A model generated the notes under the pieces. It searched no databases and had not been told where the DNA came from. It saw only the letters and a program-made list of their open reading frames with translations. A stretch of DNA of 64,000 bases, from contig JABRWF010000004.1 in NCBI GenBank assembly GCA_018343915.1, positions 3,224,001-3,288,000 of the forward strand. The letters are read 5' to 3'. The DNA comes from Agroathelia rolfsii (lineage: Eukaryota > Basidiomycota > Agaricomycetes > Amylocorticiales > Amylocorticiaceae). A program made the translations under genes and the position numbers. Of the stretch, positions 188 through 60,058 are shown one piece after another (positions within the stretch are counted from its first letter, which is position 1; each line of letters begins with the position of its first letter).

Positions 188-3100
188 TCATACGTCGAGA
201 TGCTTTTGATCGTATTCCTCCTTCCATCTCGCAAAGCCCTTCAGGGGGACTTCGCCGCAAAGCGCTCGAGTAATCCTGTGCAATTCGTCCACACCCTGAT
301 TAATCGTATCCATGCCGCCAATCATCCATATCAGAATCAAAATCTGGGGTCAGTACTTTATCATTGTGGTACAAAAGCGTTATCGGACGCACCCGGACGA
401 CCTCATACACTGCCACCAGTCCAGACGCATAGTACATATAGTTGACCGACTGGACCTCTCTAAAATCAATCACGTTTGTCTGGTCCGTATCCGCTGCTGT
501 ATTGCCCTCCGTGCTCCGGCTATGGAGCAAGAGACGCTCGAGAAGAGACCGTGGTAACACTTGATGCATAGGTTCAGCCGTGCGCAAAGACTGCGAGATG
601 AGCGAAAGAACCGCCACGACATCCCCCAGCTATGTGCAATCAAAGTATCAGTTGAATACAGAAGATACCGAGCCCCTAATCCGTCACAACAAAAAGACTT
701 ACAAAATTCGGGTTGAGAACCCGGGTGCTATGCAGGAACTTGACCCTCCACTCATCAGACATCTGGCTCAGGGCGCCTCCCATCTGTGGAAAGTTCAGAA
801 TGATGGTGGGTCAGCCGGTTATCACTTTCAACAAAGCCATGCGCATGAATAAAAAGACGCGCTTGCTTACCAGTGCAAGCGAGCTCAGTATCTCAGTCTC
901 GGTCTCCATCAGCTGCTGGTACTCCTTTTGGGGCCATGCACCCCTCAAATTACCCTCCCATTTAGCCATGTCCGTCAACCTCCTCACTTCCGTGATTTCT
1001 TCGGCAGCCACGACAAGTTGGGACCTAAATGAGGCTAGCCACTGTGCCTTAGACGCTTCGCTAGAGTTGGCGGAAGAGGCAGACGTCTCGGAAATCCAGA
1101 AAGAGATCAAGAAGGAGTAAAGGTTGTTGAGCGTCATGATCGTGCGCGCGTTGCGCAAGCGGACAGCTTTGCGGCCGGATTGCGGGGGGATAAGCATCAT
1201 GATAAACGAGGCAGCAGAACCTGAAGAGAGCGCTAATCAATGGACAGCCAATAGTATAATGTTCTGGCGAAACTACAAACCAATTATGACAAGCGTCCAT
1301 CTTTTCCAAGCGACGGACCAACCTGTTCCAGGTGAAGCTATTTGAACAAGATTCTGATCCACTTGCGAATATCCGATGATAAGAGCAAAAGTTGCCTTGA
1401 GAAATGATCAATTTCAGCCAATTGCGCTTTCTCCTCAAAGAGAAAATCCATACACAGGCCAGAATAACACCAGGCTGAATCGCTGGGGGCGTATAAAGAC
1501 GAAGCCAAAGTACGGGCACAAAGAATACTGCCGAGCTAGCAGCAATTCCATACACACTGTATCCATTCCCGTTACCTGTCGGGAAACCACCGACAATTAG
1601 GTATGTCTCTTTTTGGCCCTTGATATTGACATACCAATGTACCATGCGAGAAGACCCAAGATGAGGCCGACGATAGTTCCAGCTAAACGAATAACATAAC
1701 TAAGATCACAGTCAGTTAGTAAGTGATGTGAGTTATGTAGCAGATAGAGCTTACTTGAACATCTGGTCCGAAGCATAAATGTTCAACGTCGTTTGCGCCA
1801 TGATCAACGCCCATAATCCCTTTTCCTTGTAGTAAAATTCTAAAACACACCCACACACAATATCAATATACTCTCCAAAAGCTGGCTTTTGCACGAACAC
1901 TAACCTGCCGACTTGCTGAAAACCGACGGGAGGAACAGTGCGACAGAGAGGAAGGCGTATTTGAACGCGAACTAGGAGGGAACATTAGAAATTCGATTAT
2001 CACGATGAACTGGCACAAGTGCTCCTCACCATAGCTTCGGCCGTCCCAGTCCACCTTCTCAGCTTATGAATTATATTCACAAACTTCTGGAAAATATTGC
2101 TCGGCGGCGCGCTGTCCGGATCGCGACCTGTAGCATGTCCAAAAATTATGAGCCATCGTTTTTTTTCTTCTTTCCAAAATATGCATATATCCACCAACCA
2201 TAAGTGGCCTCAATCTCCTCTTCCTCCTTATCAGCATTCACCTTCCCCTGCTCTCCAAACACATCCTCAGCATCCTCTTGTCCGCCGCGAGAAGTACACA
2301 ACTTCGCCAACGCCCTGAGTTCCTTGGGCGCCCACAGCCTCGTCTTCTTCCGCTTCCCCGCCGTCGTTTGCACCTCCTCCGCAAATGCCATCACGGACTC
2401 CGCCACGGAGATCAAATTCGACGCAAAGACGTAACCCAAGAAAAGCGCACGGAGCGGCAGCCGCTTACGTTTCTCGAACGTGTCCGCCTCCTTGATCATC
2501 TCCAAGTACGGCTCCATGAGCATCAGACGCCCCTGCTCCTTAAATGCAGCGCGAGCTAGGGAGAGCTTCTCGATGTTGGCCGTGAGGTCGGCGAGGGCCT
2601 GGTTGTGCGCTCCGTGATCGTTCCTAAGCCGCCATGCGGCGACGTGATCGAGAATGGCCTTGGAGGATGATAGACAGGCGATGCATGCCGTACGGAGGTC
2701 GGACGTGGTGCTTTCTAGCAGAGGCAGCATTTCCTTGAGAGTGACACCCGCCTGGCGCTCACGCTGCACGTGGCGGGAGTATACTTGGCGCATGAGGTAG
2801 GTGTCCTGGAATCTGTCTTTTTTCCCAGAGGCTGATCCCGACAGCGAACTAGCTTCGGATTCGATGGAAGATAGTTCTGCTTCGTGGTTCCCAACAAGGC
2901 GGGCAAAGACATTCAATGCCACTTGGAAGGGAGTATCATCAGGAGGAGAGTAAGTGCTACCTTGGCTCAAGAACCAAATACTCACCTACTCTGAGCACAA
3001 CCGCAGTCATCGGTTTTTCAAGATCACGCACGTCAGATCCACTCCACCTACCCACATTGAACTCGAGGTTAATAAACGGGAGCTTCGCGCTCACTATTCA

Positions 3101-16200: not shown

Positions 16201-17344
16201 CCATGGGGTAGATCAAAAAGAGGAAGAGTTACACGTATAGATTCATGATAGACTGACACGAGCTTGCTCGCGGCAGAAGGAGAAGACCACCCTGGGTGCC
16301 CTGGTGATGCAAAAAAAAAAAAAAAAAATAGCCTATGCGTCACGGATGGATTAAAAATAATGCAACACTTAATGCCCTGATTTGGTCTGCGTGTTCGTCT
16401 ATCCGTTCCATCTGGTGACAGAGAGCCAAAGGAAATGTATAGGTCAAGGTGGATTTTGCACGCTCAAACTCGTTCGCACCTGTCTATGGGTTGATGATGA
16501 AGGCGGTAGTAAATAGCTCTATCATGACAGATGTACATCTCTTTTTCCATTCGGACATGTGGGCAGGTAGAAAAGATATGCACGGTTCTTGAGAGAAGAT
16601 CCATTTTCCAAAGATGCTTCTCACGAAAGACGCTGTCCTACTGATGGTGTGATGATGATGATGGATGATGATACATGTATACATGTGGGTCCGTGGATTG
16701 GAGCTTGTTAGTCGTAGTTGTATAGCAAGTCTGAATTGCTGGCTCGGTGAACAGAGCGCCGCGCCGACAAGCGGCCTAGGCACGACTTGCACACCACAAG
16801 CCGGCAACAGCAGCGCCGCTTGAATCTCCCGCAAGATACAGATACGCTCGGCCGCAGTGCCGTGGATACCATATCGTGTTTGTTCCTCAGCCGATGTTGG
16901 GCACCGGTTGAGCAAAAGAAAATACACACAAGCTTGTGCCAAGCTGCCTGGGTATATACACAGCCAATAGGGCCTAGCTCTTGCTTTCTCGCCTCAGGCC
17001 AATCAGGGCAGATACCATACCCGTCATGATAGCCAAGGGGCCAAGAAAGATTATGGAAATTGCACTGCAGAGGGGAGCAGGGCTCGGACCCCCTGAAAAC
17101 GGTGTGACGCATAGATAGGGGCCTTGGAGACCAAAAGCAGCAAGCAGTCAACGGGACATCGGAGTCTGTTCCTGTCGGCTTCTGGTATACGCTTCCTTCA
17201 CTTGGAATAAATATGCCACCTAATGCTATCACACCGATTCCCTCACCAGTCCCGCTTCTCTCTCACACCCTCACCCTCTCTCAAGAGCTCTCATAAACCC
17301 CATCACTCAAGGCTTCTATCAAATACACCTTCACACATCACACA
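13264..17344. other. Gene-poor region, ~4.1 kb
   Basis: Divergent upstream region of Dabb copy 1 and of the repeat-peptide gene. It holds T runs (13263-13275, 13930-13940), a CAT/CAC microsatellite near 16105-16130, and an A run at about 16311-16329. The 174-codon minus-strand frame at 16708-17232 is Cys/Arg-rich without domain character. The 13-mer CATGATGCATGAT occurs at 15781. No gene is supported. Confidence 0.55.
17235..17290 (+). promoter_or_regulatory. Pyrimidine-rich promoter/leader of repeat-peptide gene
   Basis: A CT-rich block (repeated CTCTC, CCCTCACC) lies 55-110 bases before the ATG at 17345, preceded at about 17207 by an AATAAATATG element. CT blocks upstream of start codons are typical of strongly expressed fungal genes and often mark the transcription start. 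Inferred from composition only. Confidence 0.4.
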
Positions 17345-17780
17345 ATGCGCTTCCAGGCTTTGCTTTTGCTTGCATCTCTCTCTTCTCTCGTCTTCGCTGC
17401 CCCTATAGTGAGCATTCAATGGATCTATGCTGTTAAAGTACATGTCCTAATCATTCACTCTAAACAACAGGCCGATAATGAGCTTGCGGCCCGTGCAGAA
17501 GTAATCGACGCCCGTGAGGTTGACTCGGTGAGTAAACATATTTCAATCAATATTACATCACTCAATACTCATGTAAACATTGCCTCAGCGTCAGAACAAC
17601 AGCGAGTGGAAGCGCCAGAACAACAGTGAATGGAAGCGTCAGAACAACAGTGAATGGAAACGTCAGGACAATAGTGAATGGAAACGCCAGAACAACAGCG
17701 AGTGGAAGAAACGCCAGAGCAATAGCGAGTGGAAGCGTCAAAGTAACAGCGAGTGGAAGCCTCGTGAGGACAATGCATGA
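17345..17780 (+). CDS. Secreted Kex2-processed tandem-repeat peptide precursor
   Basis: Three exons: 17345-17407, 17471-17527, 17589-17780, all with GT-AG introns and phase 0, giving 103 residues. Exon 1 is a clean signal peptide (MRFQALLLLASLSSLVFAAP). Exon 2 encodes an acidic spacer (ADNELAARAEVIDAREVDS). Exon 3 is seven tandem units of consensus RQNNSEWK, so each Q(N/D/S)NSEW core is bounded by Lys-Arg; unit 5 ends Lys-Lys-Arg. The tail is PREDNA. Position 2 of the core varies (Asn four times, Asp once, Ser twice); the rest is invariant. Known family behaviour: Kex2 cuts after Lys-Arg in the Golgi and a carboxypeptidase trims the basic residues, which would release hexapeptides starting with Gln. 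It is not a CaaX pheromone and lacks the Tyr-Xaa-Ile-Gly core of ustiloxins. Function unknown. Confidence 0.85.
17589..17759 (+). repeat. Coding minisatellite, seven 24-27 bp units
   Basis: Seven consecutive in-frame units of 24 bases (one of 27) make up exon 3 of the peptide gene. Synonymous changes separate the units (AAC/AAT, AGC/AGT, GAG/GAA, CGT/CGC), so they are not a very recent amplification, yet the encoded peptide is kept. The antisense strand is also open across the array, producing a Cys/Ser-rich shadow frame. Confidence 0.9.
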
Positions 17781-25419: not shown

Positions 25420-26423
25420 TCTGCCCTACCTGCTTTGGTTTCTTGCGACTTCTCTCTAACTTACTGTGCACTATCAATTCGTCAGTCCGCACGCTCTTCC
25501 ACATTTGCTCTCTTACTAACTGCTTCAATCCCATTTATGCAGACAACCGACCGTATTGTATCCCTACAACCACCCTACAGATCACACGTAAACGTGTGTG
25601 CGCGTTTTCCTTTTACTCTACAACCACCTCCTCCTTGAATGGATAATCAGAATCAGGTACACGTACAATCAGAGTCACAGACCATATTTCTTCAAACCCT
25701 ACCCAATTTCCTTCGTCAGCCCAACTGCAAACCGCATTTCCACATTCGTTCTCATTCATTTGTCTGTTATCATTGTTTCTTTATTGCTTCGCCGTCACAA
25801 AAGCATTTGTCCTTCCTTGGGTTCGCTTCGACTTCTCAATCTCTCGCCATCTCTTGTTTATACATTCCATTTATCTTATTTATTTCGGGTTTCTTCATTT
25901 CCTTTCAGGCTGGCATTCCCTTGCTTCTTTACTTTTCTTCTTCGCCGGCCGTGCCAGGTTTGACATTCGTTATACACCAACACATTTATTACTTTGCTTT
26001 GTGGGTTATTGTTCGTTTATTCTTATTCAATTGCTACCGGGCTTTCGATCTTATTACTACCCTACATTTTCATATTGCAAATAGAAACTAGACCTCATTA
26101 TGCATATGGTTAGCTATGCTGGTGCCTAGACCAGTAATGTAGAATATATGCTAGTATGCCCATTAGTTGACATGTATCATCTACTATACAACTACTATAC
26201 AGTACAGTATGTAATTGACAACCTATGCGTTTATATTTCCGGTGACATTCATGAATGGCGTCAGTCTCCTCATTCTGTGTCGATATATCGATATGGGGTT
26301 AATGTAGTGTATTCAGTCAAGAACTTGATAGGTCATATGTCGCATATCGCACCATCATGGCGATTCTGAGTCCAAAAACTCACAGTTTGATTGATACACG
26401 TTTTTTCTATCGTCAACGATAGA
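25420..26423. other. Pyrimidine-rich intergenic, ~1 kb
   Basis: The stretch 25435-26090 is strongly T/C-rich on the plus strand, so long Phe/Ser/Leu-rich frames (up to 150 codons) open by composition alone. It is probably the Dabb 3' flank and the upstream region of the monooxygenase. No protein domain is seen. Confidence 0.5.
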
Positions 26424-27953
26424 ATGCCTAGCCCACGTCCGCAACGCATCCTAGTCATCGGAGGTGGCCCATGTGGCCTCGTTACCTTGCGAAACCTACT
26501 AGAACGTGGTCGTTTCGCCTCGGTCCAGCTCGTAGAAAGGCGCGGAGATGTGGGCGGTGTATGGTGGGGTGTGGGTCGAATGCGTTAGTGTACTGATGAT
26601 TACAATGATGGCACATTTTGTAGGAACGTAAATGAGGGCTCTGACTCGGTGTCGCGCTGGCCATCGCCGCTTTATCCTGGTCTGGTGGGCAACGTACTAC
26701 CAGAGTTCCTGTCCTTCTCCGGGCTAGACTTCGAAACCGTCGGAGATCGTGCGAGATATTTCCCGACTGCCAGGGAGACGTACAATTATCTGCGCAAGTT
26801 CGCCGAACCACTGCGCGATTACATCCGGCTTAATACAGAGATTACGACCGTGGAGGAGACGGCCAACGGTGACTGGAAAGTTTATTGGAAGCTTTGGAAA
26901 CAGGACGGAACGTACACTGAAGGAAAAGAGAACTGGGATGCAGTTGTCATCGCTACAGCATGGTATGACCATCCAAAGTGGCCCGATATCCAGGGATTGG
27001 AATCGGCGCGTGATGCGGGACTCGCCGTGCACGCCATGCAATGGAAAGGACCTGAAGCTTACGCAGGCAAAGTAAGTTTTCAATCACGCTGTTTGCATGC
27101 TCACAGCTATTGCAATTTCTAATTAAGAACGACAACAACCACATTTTTATGGTAGTAGGATGTGCTCGTTGTAGGCAATGCCAATTCATCAAACGACATC
27201 ACCGCACAGTTGTTGCCTGTCGCTCGCAGCGTGCGACGATCCACAAGGAACCCTGCAAGCTACCATTTCGTTTATTTACCAGATGAGCGCATAAATGAAG
27301 TGGGCCCCATCACGGACATTGTAGTAACCTCAAACGACACACTCTCCGTGACCTTTTCAGACAACACCTCGGCATCTGGTCTTCATACTGTCATCTTTGG
27401 GACCGGGTACAATGTCTCTGTATCGTATCTCCGTGTACGAGAGCCATTCAGTAGTAAACTCGTACCAATCAATTCTTCATCGGTCTCGCCTACCCGTATA
27501 CCATCGTTGCATCACCACATTCTTTACGCATACAATCCGACGTTAGCATTTATTGGCGCCATTGTATCCGGAACGCCATTTGTGCTTGCAGATGCCACGA
27601 GTACTTGGCTGGCTCTCGCCTGGAATGGTGTCCTGCCTTATCCGGAGTCTGTAGAAGAACGACACCTATCGGAGACTGCACGGCTCGAAGAGTTGGAAAA
27701 TATCAAGAAGACCACTGGGAGTACATCGAGCTTGGTCGCGTACCATGTCCTTGGGGGTGCTGAACTGTCTTACGCAAGACAGATCAGGAAGGAAATTGTC
27801 GATGTTCGACCGGAATTTGATAATGTGCTGCTCGATTGGGATGACGCTATGTGGGCAAGGAGGGAGGGCATGTATCCCATCAAATTTGAGTCGCTTAAAC
27901 AAGCTCGAGAGAAGGGCTTGGAGCCCGGTAATCGTATTTCCCACAATTCATAA
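26424..27953 (+). CDS. Flavin-containing monooxygenase (FMO-like, FAD/NADPH)
   Basis: Start at 26424 gives RILVIGGGPCGLVTLRNLLE, the FAD-binding Rossmann GxGxxG motif at residues 13-18, followed by GGVWW. Exon 2 has RWPSPLYPGLVGNVLPEFLS, a signature of fungal FMOs, and ends AYAGK. Exon 3 opens with DVLVVGNANSSNDIT, the second (NADPH) dinucleotide motif, then FGTGYN and a long C-terminal domain, stopping at 27953. The enzyme would add one oxygen atom from O2 to a soft nucleophile (N or S) or act as a Baeyer-Villiger type enzyme; substrate unknown. The intron 2 splice is canonical. The intron 1 boundary is ambiguous: canonical GT-AG 26571-26636, or a 42-base GC-AG intron 26582-26623, which would retain more residues. 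Confidence 0.87.
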
Positions 27954-40735: not shown

Positions 40736-42730
40736 TCAGCCCTCATTCTTGACCCTGCTCCAGGGAGTGACAAACGGCGGCATATCGCCCGCACCCGCCG
40801 AGGGAGGACCATGGTGATGATGGGACCGACCATATGCCCCCGTCGACCGATTATCCGACATGGGCGGCAATGTCACGGGCCCGGCAGAGTATAATCGTGC
40901 ATCAGCGCTGTTCCTGTCAGCGCCCAGAGAAGGATAGGAAGTGTTCAGGGGCGGCAGGGACGGTGTCGAGCCAAACCCAGCCGTGACGGATGCCGTCGAA
41001 CGGTCGTACAGGCCAGATAGGCCTGCTGCCGCTACTGCCACAGCCGCATCAGTAGTGTACGCTGACGTTGCGGTCGGCGAGGGCGACGTCGAATGAGAAG
41101 GGGAATAGAGGCCTCCACCACCTGGTCCCGATGTGCTCGATCCCGACGACGGAGGCTGTGTGCCCGGAGGATAGAACGGCGAATTTAGCGTTGGGAAGTT
41201 GAAGTCGGGAGACTGCGAGGTCGTGGCGATGGGTGACTCGGCGGCTGACGTGCTCGACCGGCTGGAAGGCGCAACGCTGCTGCCAGGTCCGCTCCAGGAA
41301 GAGGACGAAGAAGAATAGGCGTGCTGCTTGGCGCGATCGGCCATCCATGCGGCTGCGGCTGCGGTCGGATCGCGCGAGCCATAATCGTGTGCAGGGCGGC
41401 TAGTCGGCGGTTGTGTCCAGGGAGACTGTTGACCAGAGACACCGCCGCCTGATGCTGCGGAATACGGCGGGCTGCTTGAGGAAGGCGTGGCGGGGAACCC
41501 TCTAGAGAAGGAGTAAGGGCCAGTAGATGGCGTCGGTAATGGCGGAATCGACGGCGGTTGCTGATGATGATGGTGGTGGTTCGGCACCGTGCTCCGTTCG
41601 TAAAGATGGCGCGAATCGCTGCGGCTGCGGAACGATTCCGGAGAAGAGGACGAAGAAGGGTAGGGGAAGTTAGCAGCGCCAGCGTGTGCTGACGACGAGC
41701 CAATGGAGTACCCTGAACGGGAGTCGATAGGAGAGATAGGGCGTGAATGCAATGATGTTAATGACTGGGCCGCGTGCATACTTGGGTAAATATCTGATGC
41801 ATAATCATAATTCTCCTCGCTCTCAATTGGTGAGCCGTCGCCGTCGAGACCGGGGTCATCGAGGCCATCGCCTGGCAGGTGATCATACCCATGTAGCTGG
41901 GCATCTGGCCTTCGTCTCTTACGAGAGTTATTGGGTCTGCGGCGATAGACATAATCCGGATATTTCGCGTTGAAGTTCTCTTTCAGCGTTTTGGCCTTGT
42001 CAAGGTAAAACTGCTTTTCTACCTATGGAAAGAAGGTCACATGAGTTTCCAAAAAAAGAAAGAGTAACCATCAAGTGCAAACAGAAGCGGCAGACGCGGG
42101 GTAACGCTAACACATAATGTTGTCACGCCACGCGTTCAGTGGCTGCCAAGAAAGTTTAAAAAAGGAAAAGGGTAAACGCGTCACGCACCGCTGGCATGTT
42201 GGCCCATTCTTGACTTAGAATTTTGCTGATGGCCCCCGTCTTCATAGACTGGTTCTCGGCAGACACCTGGGGGCGTCGCCTTCTGGCAAAAATCATAAAC
42301 GCGTTCATGGGTCGTTTGGGGGTACCATCGGCGTTTAAAGTTTGCACTGTAAGAGATGCGTTGGGGTCGTCTGGATCTAAATGTGCATGCATAGCGATAT
42401 AACAGAGGGGAAGGAAAGGTAGGAAAATGATTGAATAATCTGATTATGCATTGTTGTTTTGCGTGTCTTTGAGAGCCAAAAGTGACACACAAAGTACACG
42501 CATATATACTCACCTTGGTTAGCAGAGACACTATGTCTGGAGTGAGATGGATAATCAAGACCATGTGTCGACGTGGGTGTGGTCGACGTTGGAGTGGATG
42601 ACTCGGTGTTAGCAGCATTGGACTGCATGTCCTTGTCATCGCGTTCACTGTGGGAGGGCGATACAGAGTCGAAGAACGAGGTTGACTGGTACGTCTTGGG
42701 GAGTGCCATGTCAGAGCTGTAACGGTTCAT
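40736..42730 (-). CDS. HMG-box transcription factor (SOX/Rox1/MATA-HMG type)
   Basis: Start assigned at 42730 (MNRYSSDMALPK); an in-frame ATG at 42793 could add 21 residues. The Ser/Thr-rich head is followed by the HMG box from about residue 92: PKRPMNAFMIFARRRRPQVS, then SMKTGAISKILSQEWANMPA and EKQFYLDKAKTLKENFNAKY, ending PDYVYRRRPNNSRKRRR with a nuclear localisation signal. RPMNAF is the signature of sequence-specific (SOX-like) HMG boxes. The long C-terminal exon (40736 to about 41970) is low-complexity: Ser runs, His run, Pro- and Gly-rich tracts, Ala repeats, ending SRVKNEG, a typical activation or scaffold region. Three or more introns, one inside the HMG box. Basidiomycete members regulate mating, dikaryon or fruiting development; the specific role here is unknown. 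Confidence 0.9.
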
Positions 42731-57400: not shown

Positions 57401-58591
57401 GGGAGCCCCATTTTGCGCTGAGTCCAGAACCGGTATCTGCTCTGATAACCGTGGCATGAAGAAGAATGGGGAGTGGGGATGGGCGTTACGATATAATGAT
57501 GAGATGACATGCTATCGCCGCTCTGCGTTCCACCACACATCATGCATGATCGTGTCACGATTTTGCAGCTGCTCCATGGCCAAAAGAGTTTTTTCTTCTC
57601 GACTGATGGCCCGCCACGACACAATGTTAGGGTTATAGTGGTGCCATTACACAGCAGTGTGATGGACGAGCGTCAGGTGGAAAGTATAGAAAGGATTGTT
57701 AGCCCATTGCTCCATCAAACGGTTAGACCCCTGTCTTGGGCTTGATTGAAATCAAAACAAACAAAATAATAATAATGAACAACCATGCAGGCCTATGCAG
57801 GGGTCATAGTGCATACAATGACCTTGCTGGGCACTGTGCAAGGTCCATCGCCCTTTGCACCCACCAACGATGATCCGTATGCGATGCCTACGTTCTACAG
57901 CTTGTAACGGCTCTGCCATGGGTTGTCAACCTGATTCCTTGTCAGGGCAAACATGTCCATCATAACGCTGTCATCCGAGTCAAGTTTCGGTAGACATTAT
58001 ACACACCCAAGCCCGGCGCCTGGTACCGACCGACTCAGCCGCTCACGCAATACAAAATGTAATAACGTTTATATTCAAGTTCACGGCGAACTTGGTTTAG
58101 GTCGCTCCATTCCTGCTGACACACGGAAGAGGCTTGCGTCATGACGGCCATGACTCAGCTATGACAACGCCTTTCTCACATCATTCGCACAACTCCAGTG
58201 CAGTCGTGTAGAGTATTATGTGTACGCGCCGTGTTCCTCACTAATTGCTGGTGCGCATGGCGGTCACTGACAGAGCATGCGAATCCAATCACTCGGACTA
58301 TTTTGCTGGCTATTCTTGCACGTTGGCAGCTCTGCAGGCGGCGGAGTCCAGGTGACAAGTGGCTGACGAATGGTTTGTTCGGGCAGGTGCCGAAGTTCGG
58401 CAAGGGCCTTGGTCAGCAGAGCGTACAATGGTGGTGGTGGCCACAGCAGCTAGCTCGTCATCCTTTCGTGCTCGCGCGGAAAAAATTCATTCATCAAGAA
58501 TTATAAAAAATGCCAGACATGGTCGAGAGGTGAGCATCGTAATTGCCATCCCTCACCTGTACAGCACCTAGCATACCCATTACTCTCTAGG
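54447..58591. other. Gene-poor region, ~4.1 kb
   Basis: 3' flank of the kinase gene, then DNA with no supported gene, and the promoter of cystathionine gamma-lyase at the right. Contains a G9 run at about 54698, an A10 run near 55390, and ATGATGCATGAT-like motifs at 56343 and 57538. Frames near 57240-57620 look gag-like in base composition only; no motif is recognised. Confidence 0.45.
58151..58157 (+). promoter_or_regulatory. TGACTCA (Gcn4/Cpc1-type) site
   Basis: A perfect TGACTCA heptamer 441 bases upstream of the cystathionine gamma-lyase start. This is the binding site of the general amino-acid control factor Gcn4/Cpc1, a known regulator of sulfur amino-acid genes. Single short motif, so functional inference is weak. 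Confidence 0.35.
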
Positions 58592-60058
58592 ATGTCTCCT
58601 GCACGTATACTCGAAGATACCCACGCAAACGGTTCATCAGATAAGACTGCTCAACCCATCCTTGACGATCATACCAACGACGGGTTCGGCACCCGAGCCA
58701 TCCACGTAGGCTCAGAGCCCAGCACAGAGACAGGGGCCGTTATCCCGGCTATCTCTCTCAGCACTACCTATAAGCAAGAGAGCGTAGGTGTTCACAAAGG
58801 ATACGAGTACACTCGTTCTGGCAACCCCAACCGCGATGCTCTAGAGAGGACGCTGACGGCCATCGAGGCCGGCGCCGGCCAGGCACTCGCATTCGCATCT
58901 GGCTCCTCAGCTACGGCTACATTGCTGCAGTCGTTGGGTCCCGGTGCCCATGTTCTGAGTGTCAATGACGTCTATGGCGGAACCTTCAGGTACATGACCA
59001 AAGTCGCGGCCCAGAATCAGGGCCTCGAAGTTGATTTCGTGGAGCTCGAAGGTCTTGGTGAAGATGAGATCCGCAGTCACGTTCGTCCTAACACCAAGGT
59101 GAGCGTTTGGTTCTAATGATCGGTTGATTGTACATGATTGTGAATTCTAACTTGTTTGATATGATAGTTGATCTGGATCGAGACACCAAGCAATCCCACT
59201 CTGCGTGTATTGTCCATCCCAACTATCGCTCGTGTAGCACATACATCCCCATCGCAGCCGCTGCTGCTTGTCGACTCGACATTCCAATCACCTTTCTTCG
59301 CCTCCCCAATCCTCGCTGGCGCAGATATCGTCTTACATTCACTCACCAAATACATTAATGGCCACTCTGACATACTCGCTGGTGCAATTCTCCTGCCCTC
59401 TTCACCCACGCACGACGCCTTTGCAGCCAAACTACGCTTCTTGCAAAATGCCATCGGCGCTGTACCGAGTGCGTACGACTGCTGGCTTGCCCAACGCGGC
59501 GCCAAGACATTGCACCTGCGCATGAAAGCGCACGGGGAGAACGCCTTGCTCGTCGCGCGTGCACTAGCATCGAGCCCGTACGTGGACACGAATAGAATCG
59601 CTTATCCCGGCCTGGCCTCCCACCCACGCCACACACTTGCGTGGGAGGCACTTGCCCCCGTCGCTAAGCGATGGGTGACCTCTCTACAGACTTTCACGGG
59701 CGCCGAGGGTGACTTCCCGTACGGTGGCATGCTCTCATTCCATCCCAACCCGAGGCTGTTCTCCACTTCGGAGCAGCAGGCAGCGTTTGCCCACGCTTTC
59801 CTTGGCCATCTGCGACTGTTTACACTCGCAGAGAGCTTGGGTGGCGTCGAGAGTTTGTCAGAGCTGCCAGCGCTGATGACGCATGCGTCCATCCCCGAGG
59901 CGGAGCGTGCCAAGTTGGGCATCTCGGAGGGCATGGTCCGCCTCAGCGTTGGCGTTGAGGAGGGCGAGGACCTCGTCGCGGATGTCGTACAAGCTTTGGA
60001 GCGTGCAGCTGAGGATGTGCTGGGCTCGAAGAAAGCTGCGGCTATCGCTGTGGCATGA
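58592..60058 (+). CDS. Cystathionine gamma-lyase (PLP enzyme, transsulfuration)
   Basis: Two exons, 58592-59098 and 59168-60058, give 465 residues. A 30-residue N-terminal extension precedes the conserved GFGTRAIHVG start of the Cys/Met-metabolism PLP family. Other blocks: EYTRSGNPNRDALERTLTAIE, AFASGSSATATLLQSL, NDVYGGTFRYM, IWIETPSNPTLRV, LLVDSTFQSP (Asp about 205 binds the PLP ring nitrogen) and HSLTKYINGHSD, where Lys about 230 forms the Schiff base. The C-terminus has ESLGGVESL, MTHASIP and MVRLSVGVE. It cleaves cystathionine to cysteine, 2-oxobutyrate and ammonia and can release hydrogen sulfide. Cystathionine gamma-lyase fits better than gamma-synthase, but the distinction by eye is not absolute. 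It is convergent with the GH28 gene: only 248 bases separate the stop codons. Confidence 0.92.

Follow-up and report, generated by a model that had tools for sequence, protein, structure and literature searches.

The 64,000-nucleotide stretch of Agroathelia rolfsii DNA analyzed here (hereafter, the window) very probably contains a gene for the precursor of a Kex2-processed repeat protein (KEP), in which a predicted signal peptide and a short spacer are followed by seven units of a Q[N/D/S]NSEW hexapeptide (Table 1). This reading, already put forward in an earlier note on this DNA, fits the features amenable to testing (predicted signal peptide, repeats and dibasic sites), and we favor it because of the architecture of the precursor, the existence of an intact syntenic copy, the invariant NSEW core, the synonymous bias of the variation in the coding sequence and the presence of a kexin domain in the genome.

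Table 1. Features of the putative KEP precursor gene and of its upstream region, in window positions.
Feature	Position	Strand	Description
Candidate regulatory block	16992-17128	+	217-353 bp before the ATG; four AGGGG/CCCCT pentamers
Precursor gene	17345-17780	+	Three exons, intact frame, 103-residue product
Exon 1	17345-17407	+	Predicted signal peptide MRFQALLLLASLSSLVFA (17345-17398), then API
Intron 1	17408-17470	+	63 bp, GTGAGC..CAACAG; splice sites present in the partner copy (67 bp there)
Exon 2	17471-17527	+	19-residue spacer ADNELAARAEVIDAREVDS
Intron 2	17528-17588	+	61 bp, GTGAGT..CCTCAG; same splice sites and length in the partner copy
Exon 3	17589-17780	+	Arg, seven Q[N/D/S]NSEW units and the tail EDNA
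Core repeats 1-4	17592-17609, 17616-17633, 17640-17657, 17664-17681	+	Read from the sequence
Core repeats 5-7	17688-17705, 17715-17732, 17739-17756	+	Read from the sequence; core span 17592-17756
Stop codon TGA	17778-17780	+	End of exon 3

The intact three-exon frame proposed in the earlier note was borne out, with both the splice sites and the frame of the 103-aa spliced product kept in a second copy of the gene on another contig (the partner), and its succession of signal peptide (as predicted), short spacer and seven tandem units was likewise found in the window sequence. At the start of exon 1, the mean hydropathy over 11 residues reaches at most 2.4 and a cleavage-like site is apparent at VFA/AP (from composition and by eye); the N-terminal signal peptide that forms part of the definition of KEPs is hence recognized by composition alone. 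The exon structure was selected among 155 two-intron models (the chosen one included) that place at least six units in frame, and single-intron models also exist; the intron pair GTGAGC/CAG and GTGAGT/CAG was chosen because both introns are kept in the partner, and by eye. Intron 1 of the window copy (63 bp) contains no in-frame stop, and therefore an intron-retaining form would also encode an open protein; retention of the 67-bp partner intron would shift the frame. Among frames of at least 40 aa located between 14.2 and 21.6 kb, exon 3 ranks first by an ad hoc third-position score, and no further gene was recognized in this interval, where small ones could escape recognition.

The repeats of exon 3 are detected by TRF as a 24-bp tandem array of 7.1 copies (17587-17760). 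The window units begin, in order, with QNN, QNN, QNN, QDN, QNN, QSN and QSN, all of them continuing with SEW, and the NSEW core that had been described as invariant is indeed present in all 14 units of the two copies. Dibasic sites had been claimed between all units and occur at 6 of 6 window junctions. The related claim that each unit ends in Lys-Arg held for six of the seven units (KR in units 1-4 and 6, KKR in unit 5) and failed for unit 7, which ends in KPR and is followed by EDNA. Ahead of unit 1 stands the monobasic sequence DSR, with a single Arg, and five of the seven units have a dibasic site on both flanks. In silico cutting after KR or RR, followed by trimming, yields QNNSEW three times and QDNSEW and QSNSEW once each; release of the first unit from the spacer would additionally require a cut at the single Arg, and the last one retains the tail. 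Cleavage at a single Arg is suspected for some Coprinopsis cinerea KEPs, according to PMC9769878.

The published definitions of KEPs differ in how they apply to this array. Le Marquer 2019 asks for at least three repeats with dibasic Kex2 separators, and the precursor presents seven units with six KR or KKR junctions; the motifs reported in that survey range from 3 aa upward (PMC6339444). The rule printed in Umemura 2020 is at least three tandem repeats of at least 8 aa between sites (PMC7329392), under which the unit, being 8 aa long with KR and 6 aa without it, is borderline. In addition, QNNSEW presents an N-X-S sequon at its residue 2 (four of seven units in the window, five of seven in the partner) that is absent from the QDN and QSN units. 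N-glycosylation of the precursor is possible on these grounds, and it would alter the expected peptide mass.

The second copy was identified through genome-wide pattern and homology searches. An exact pattern of NSEWK codons occurs at seven sites on the contig of the window (C4), at seven on C5 and nowhere else in the 37.67 Mb of the eight contigs, with the reversed pattern used as control occurring at one site on each of C4 and C5; a longer pattern spanning one unit junction gave six and six sites, and its control none on either contig. The genome homology search returned six matching stretches, all of them at these two loci (5/5 candidates scored). The partner gene on C5 is intact and encodes a 102-aa product with the same introns, seven units (QNN four times, then QSN, QNN and QSN) and six KR junctions, the QNN:QDN:QSN ratio being 4:1:2 in the window and 5:0:2 in the partner, and the C-terminus PREDNA and PREDDA, respectively.

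The similarity between the two contigs extends well beyond the precursor gene. Window positions 1-61136 are collinear with C5:1201500-1281499 in three blocks that cover 61,080 of 64,000 positions, with an identity of 91.5% at aligned bases and about 88% with gaps included (two long blocks), the third block being short and at 68%; the alignment stops where the compared C5 stretch stops. The two contigs are similar in size (4.41 vs 4.30 Mb). Matches to the kexin P-domain were obtained once on C6 and once on C7, and DUF6534, which we take to be a family expanded in Agaricomycetes, gave 78 matches in this genome (5 under the cut-off) and none in 14 control genomes. The DUF6534 matches form dense parallel clusters at about 0.5-1.1 Mb on C6 and about 0.4-1.0 Mb on C7. 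A search with 5.8S rRNA gave no match in the 39 of 1193 candidates scored. Because C4 and C5 are collinear and of similar size, and because C6 and C7 bear parallel kexin P-domain and DUF6534 matches, C4 and C5 apparently represent alternative haplotypes in a dikaryotic or diploid fungus (or homoeologues).

The evidence for conservation comes from these two copies within one assembly, and it points to constraint on the encoded peptide. In the 18 columns defined by unit codons 1 and 3-7 across the 14 units, there are five variable columns, all of which are synonymous third positions; the chance of obtaining exactly these five columns from 18 is 1 in 8568, a rough value, since the units share history. 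Codon 2 varies between N, D and S, and codon 8 differs at KKR and KPR. When all unit pairs are considered, the true frame presents 241 synonymous vs 142 nonsynonymous differences, compared to 10 vs 373 and 21 vs 362 in the other two frames. A simple tandem-repeat artefact was rejected, given that the NSEW codons vary only synonymously. Comparison of copy against copy reveals 11 synonymous codon differences (stop codon included) and six nonsynonymous ones (N24H, E31D, D67N, N75S, S83N and N101D, numbered after removal of the extra Lys of the window copy), none of the six mapping to NSEW or to the KR sites. The window copy has one Lys codon more than the partner, and exon 1 is identical in both. 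At the nucleotide level, the identity of exon 3 overall is not above that of the introns (91.1% vs 92.1 and 91.8%), and the flanking DNA shows lower identity (88.1% at 14.2-17.0 kb and 85.6% at 17.8-21.6 kb).

Upstream of the gene, a block of 137 window positions constitutes the longest substitution-free run of the 14.2-21.6 kb interval in the BLAST alignment, which leaves partner insertions uncounted. MAFFT places gaps in this region, and its mismatches number 9 in the 100-nt bin that starts at 16945 and 3 in the one at 17045, both of which extend past the block. All four of its AGGGG/CCCCT pentamers (17036, 17071, 17090 and 17117) are present in the partner. When the window was scanned in overlapping stretches of 131 nt (3194 in all), at least four such pentamers were found in 2, both of them corresponding to the upstream block, in a density test that was picked post hoc with the block already seen. 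The pentamer resembles the stress-response element of yeasts, and the block is a candidate regulatory region.

Several other genes were recognized in the window. An HMG-box transcription factor gene (42159-42443, minus strand; HMG_box E 6.4e-13) shows coding bias between the copies, and the long frame alongside its HMG-box exon (40739-42022, minus strand) gave no Pfam match. A Cys/Met metabolism PLP enzyme is encoded at 58454-60055 on the plus strand (Cys_Met_Meta_PP, E 1.9e-31 and 5.8e-75 in two frames), and a possible flavin-dependent monooxygenase gene lies at 26391-27950 on the plus strand, with a NAD_binding_8 match above the cut-off at 26391-26585 and an FMO-like match under it at 27159-27950.

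No homologue of the spliced product was found in protein searches (0 of 462 candidates, E<=10), and none with an alignment of both exon 3 copies (0 of 656 candidates). The tandem NSEWK repeats that the earlier note had proposed looking for in relatives did not appear in these protein searches, and the genome matches consisted of the two copies alone. Among viral contigs, 16 stretches fit the pattern and none was confirmed; PDB sequences gave no match to the precursor, and the single Pfam match on it had an E of 0.67 and 9.9 bits (cut-off 32.3). The protein collection does include one or more relatives of the fungus, as a neighboring exon at 2149-2985 (minus strand) retrieved an 83%-identical protein from a 4.5-kb JGI contig (one of 2 hits among 1491 candidates). 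This exon has no Pfam match of its own, and one of its two homologues bears PF10337. Literature searches for the core motif (NSEWK, NNSEW/SNSEW/DNSEW and SEWKR) returned nothing relevant by title or the opening of the abstract, supplementary KEP lists lying outside that scope. The precursor is an orphan within the collections searched, and in one survey stand-alone KEPs, without a homologue, amount to 2560 of 7878 (PMC7329392).

From the features of the precursor, we infer a route of secretion, cleavage, pyroglutamate formation and function in which the predicted signal peptide would bring the preproprotein into the ER, a Golgi kexin would cut after each KR or KKR, and a Kex1-type carboxypeptidase would remove the basic residues, leaving a free C-terminal Trp. 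The predicted secreted products would be QNNSEW, as the main one, together with QDNSEW and QSNSEW. Their N-terminal Gln would probably cyclize to pyroglutamate, which is plausible by analogy because many confirmed C. cinerea peptides are pyroglutamated, with no unmodified form of these peptides confirmed (PMC9769878). The peptide is most likely linear, and it may serve as an extracellular signal, a role that has been put forward for other KEPs and to which we assign roughly even chances here; a cyclized toxin or a mating pheromone is less likely. A more specific and speculative proposal, which we consider unlikely as a whole, is that pyroGlu-[N/D/S]NSEW would constitute an agaricomycete hormone family, operating independently of mating through a dedicated receptor to signal development or stress, with its gene activated through the upstream AGGGG/CCCCT cluster and with a haplotype-specific ratio of sequon to non-sequon variants.

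An alpha-type mating pheromone precursor, as found in ascomycetes, would also present a signal peptide and short, KR-separated, Trp-containing repeats. The precursor does resemble those of ascomycete alpha pheromones, which PMC6339444 describes as comprising a signal peptide, a pro-region and tandem KR-separated peptides. Nevertheless, ascomycete precursors have a different core and bear STE13 dipeptides, whereas XA/XP is found at none of the six KR junctions analyzed here (QN, QD or QS follows directly); the view of the earlier note that the peptide is not alpha-factor-like stands on this absence. The abundance of DUF6534 gives the genome a basidiomycete look, and both copies encode an almost identical peptide, which also argues against a mating pheromone. 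Furthermore, basidiomycete pheromones are described as prenylated peptides, with no KEP involved, in PMC9769878 and PMC6339444. Searches for STE2 (in the eight contigs) and STE3 gave no match, and neither did their controls, so that these results carry no weight as absences. Overall, we regard an alpha-type pheromone as very unlikely.

We assign a slightly smaller, and similarly slim, probability to a RiPP precursor of the dikaritin type (ustiloxin, phomopsin or asperipin), in which UstYa oxidases would cyclize the Kex2-excised core, for instance at Trp. The architecture of such precursors, with a signal peptide and Kex2-excised tandem cores (PMC7329392), is identical in kind to that observed here, and UstYa matches do exist in the genome (36 stretches; 48/48 candidates scored). 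The same survey reports a DUF3328-accompanied KEP type (P-3) that carries W in its repeats and a W content of 20.5% in KEPs accompanied by DUF3328, similar to the 24.5% of those lacking it, and its author contemplates that basidiomycetes might use other cyclization factors (PMC7329392). However, the nearest UstYa match is 79,965 bp off on C4 and 82,110 bp off on C5, in an exon-by-exon search that could miss an intron-broken gene, compared to an average distance of 3.09 genes where a KEP has such a gene close by (22% of KEPs), and the accompanied basidiomycete KEPs number 103 of 1680 (PMC7329392). In addition, known dikaritins are cyclized by clustered UstYa enzymes via Tyr, and the A. rolfsii core has one Trp and no Tyr. 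With UstYa some 80 kb distant at the nearest, the earlier judgment that the peptide is not ustiloxin-like remains in place. A tyrosinase search gave no match, and its control gave none either, so that this result is left out of account. The UstYa matches at C4:3321745-3322517 and C5:1150343-1164341, about 80-96 kb from each copy, possibly belong to a separate cyclic-peptide cluster.

Slimmest of all is the chance that the product is a secreted repeat protein functioning in uncleaved or partially cleaved form, for instance in the cell wall, or one that is N-glycosylated at NNS and plays a structural role like that of Rep1. The N-X-S sequon of the QNNSEW units would be in agreement with it, and Ustilago maydis Rep1, which contributes to the properties of the hyphal wall, is itself a KEP; the Rep1 peptides are nonetheless far longer, at 37 residues (PMC6339444). 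The unit is short and hydrophilic, and a dibasic site is kept at 12 of 12 inter-unit junctions in the two copies, both of which argue against an uncut protein. A CaaX lipopeptide pheromone, which had been discounted beforehand, was rejected on the signal-peptide-like start and on C-termini that read PREDNA in the window product and PREDDA in the partner.

KEPs are widespread, and Trp-ending KEP peptides from mushrooms have already been described (PMC9769878). Expression of C. cinerea KEP 490115 in P. pastoris gave QYKAPSW, pyro-QYKAPSW and QMRPPSW (PMC9769878). It shares with the putative A. rolfsii precursor the traits of a basidiomycete KEP with a short core that starts with Gln (also as pyroglutamate in C. 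cinerea) and ends in Trp. KEP 490115 differs in carrying STE13 XA/XP motifs together with an RR site, whereas the six-residue core of A. rolfsii follows directly after KR, and the two core sequences are unrelated; the likeness is thus one of kind, and we claim no homology. Products of this kind have been detected in mushrooms, with GPPAPSW reported in C. cinerea supernatant, and with SGTGEASAADW (present seven times in Lentinula edodes KEP 2599) and SGVAADW (Pleurotus KEPs 1091723 and 1439342) reported in fruiting bodies (PMC9769878). The Lentinula and Pleurotus KEPs share with the A. rolfsii precursor a repeated peptide with an acidic residue and a C-terminal Trp (-DW there, -EW here), and KEP 2599 also has the same number of repeats. 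Their cores are, however, longer, different and devoid of N-terminal Gln, and the Pleurotus precursors carry the STE13 motifs that A. rolfsii lacks.

Mushroom-forming fungi encode many KEPs with products that have no assigned role, and deletion of six C. cinerea KEPs left mycelial growth and fruiting unaffected, as scored in PMC9769878. Since its core is invariant, its candidate promoter compact and its alleles two in number, a hexapeptide precursor such as this one would provide an easy test of KEP peptides as signals. Furthermore, six-residue cores such as this one may be under-counted in length-limited KEP surveys.
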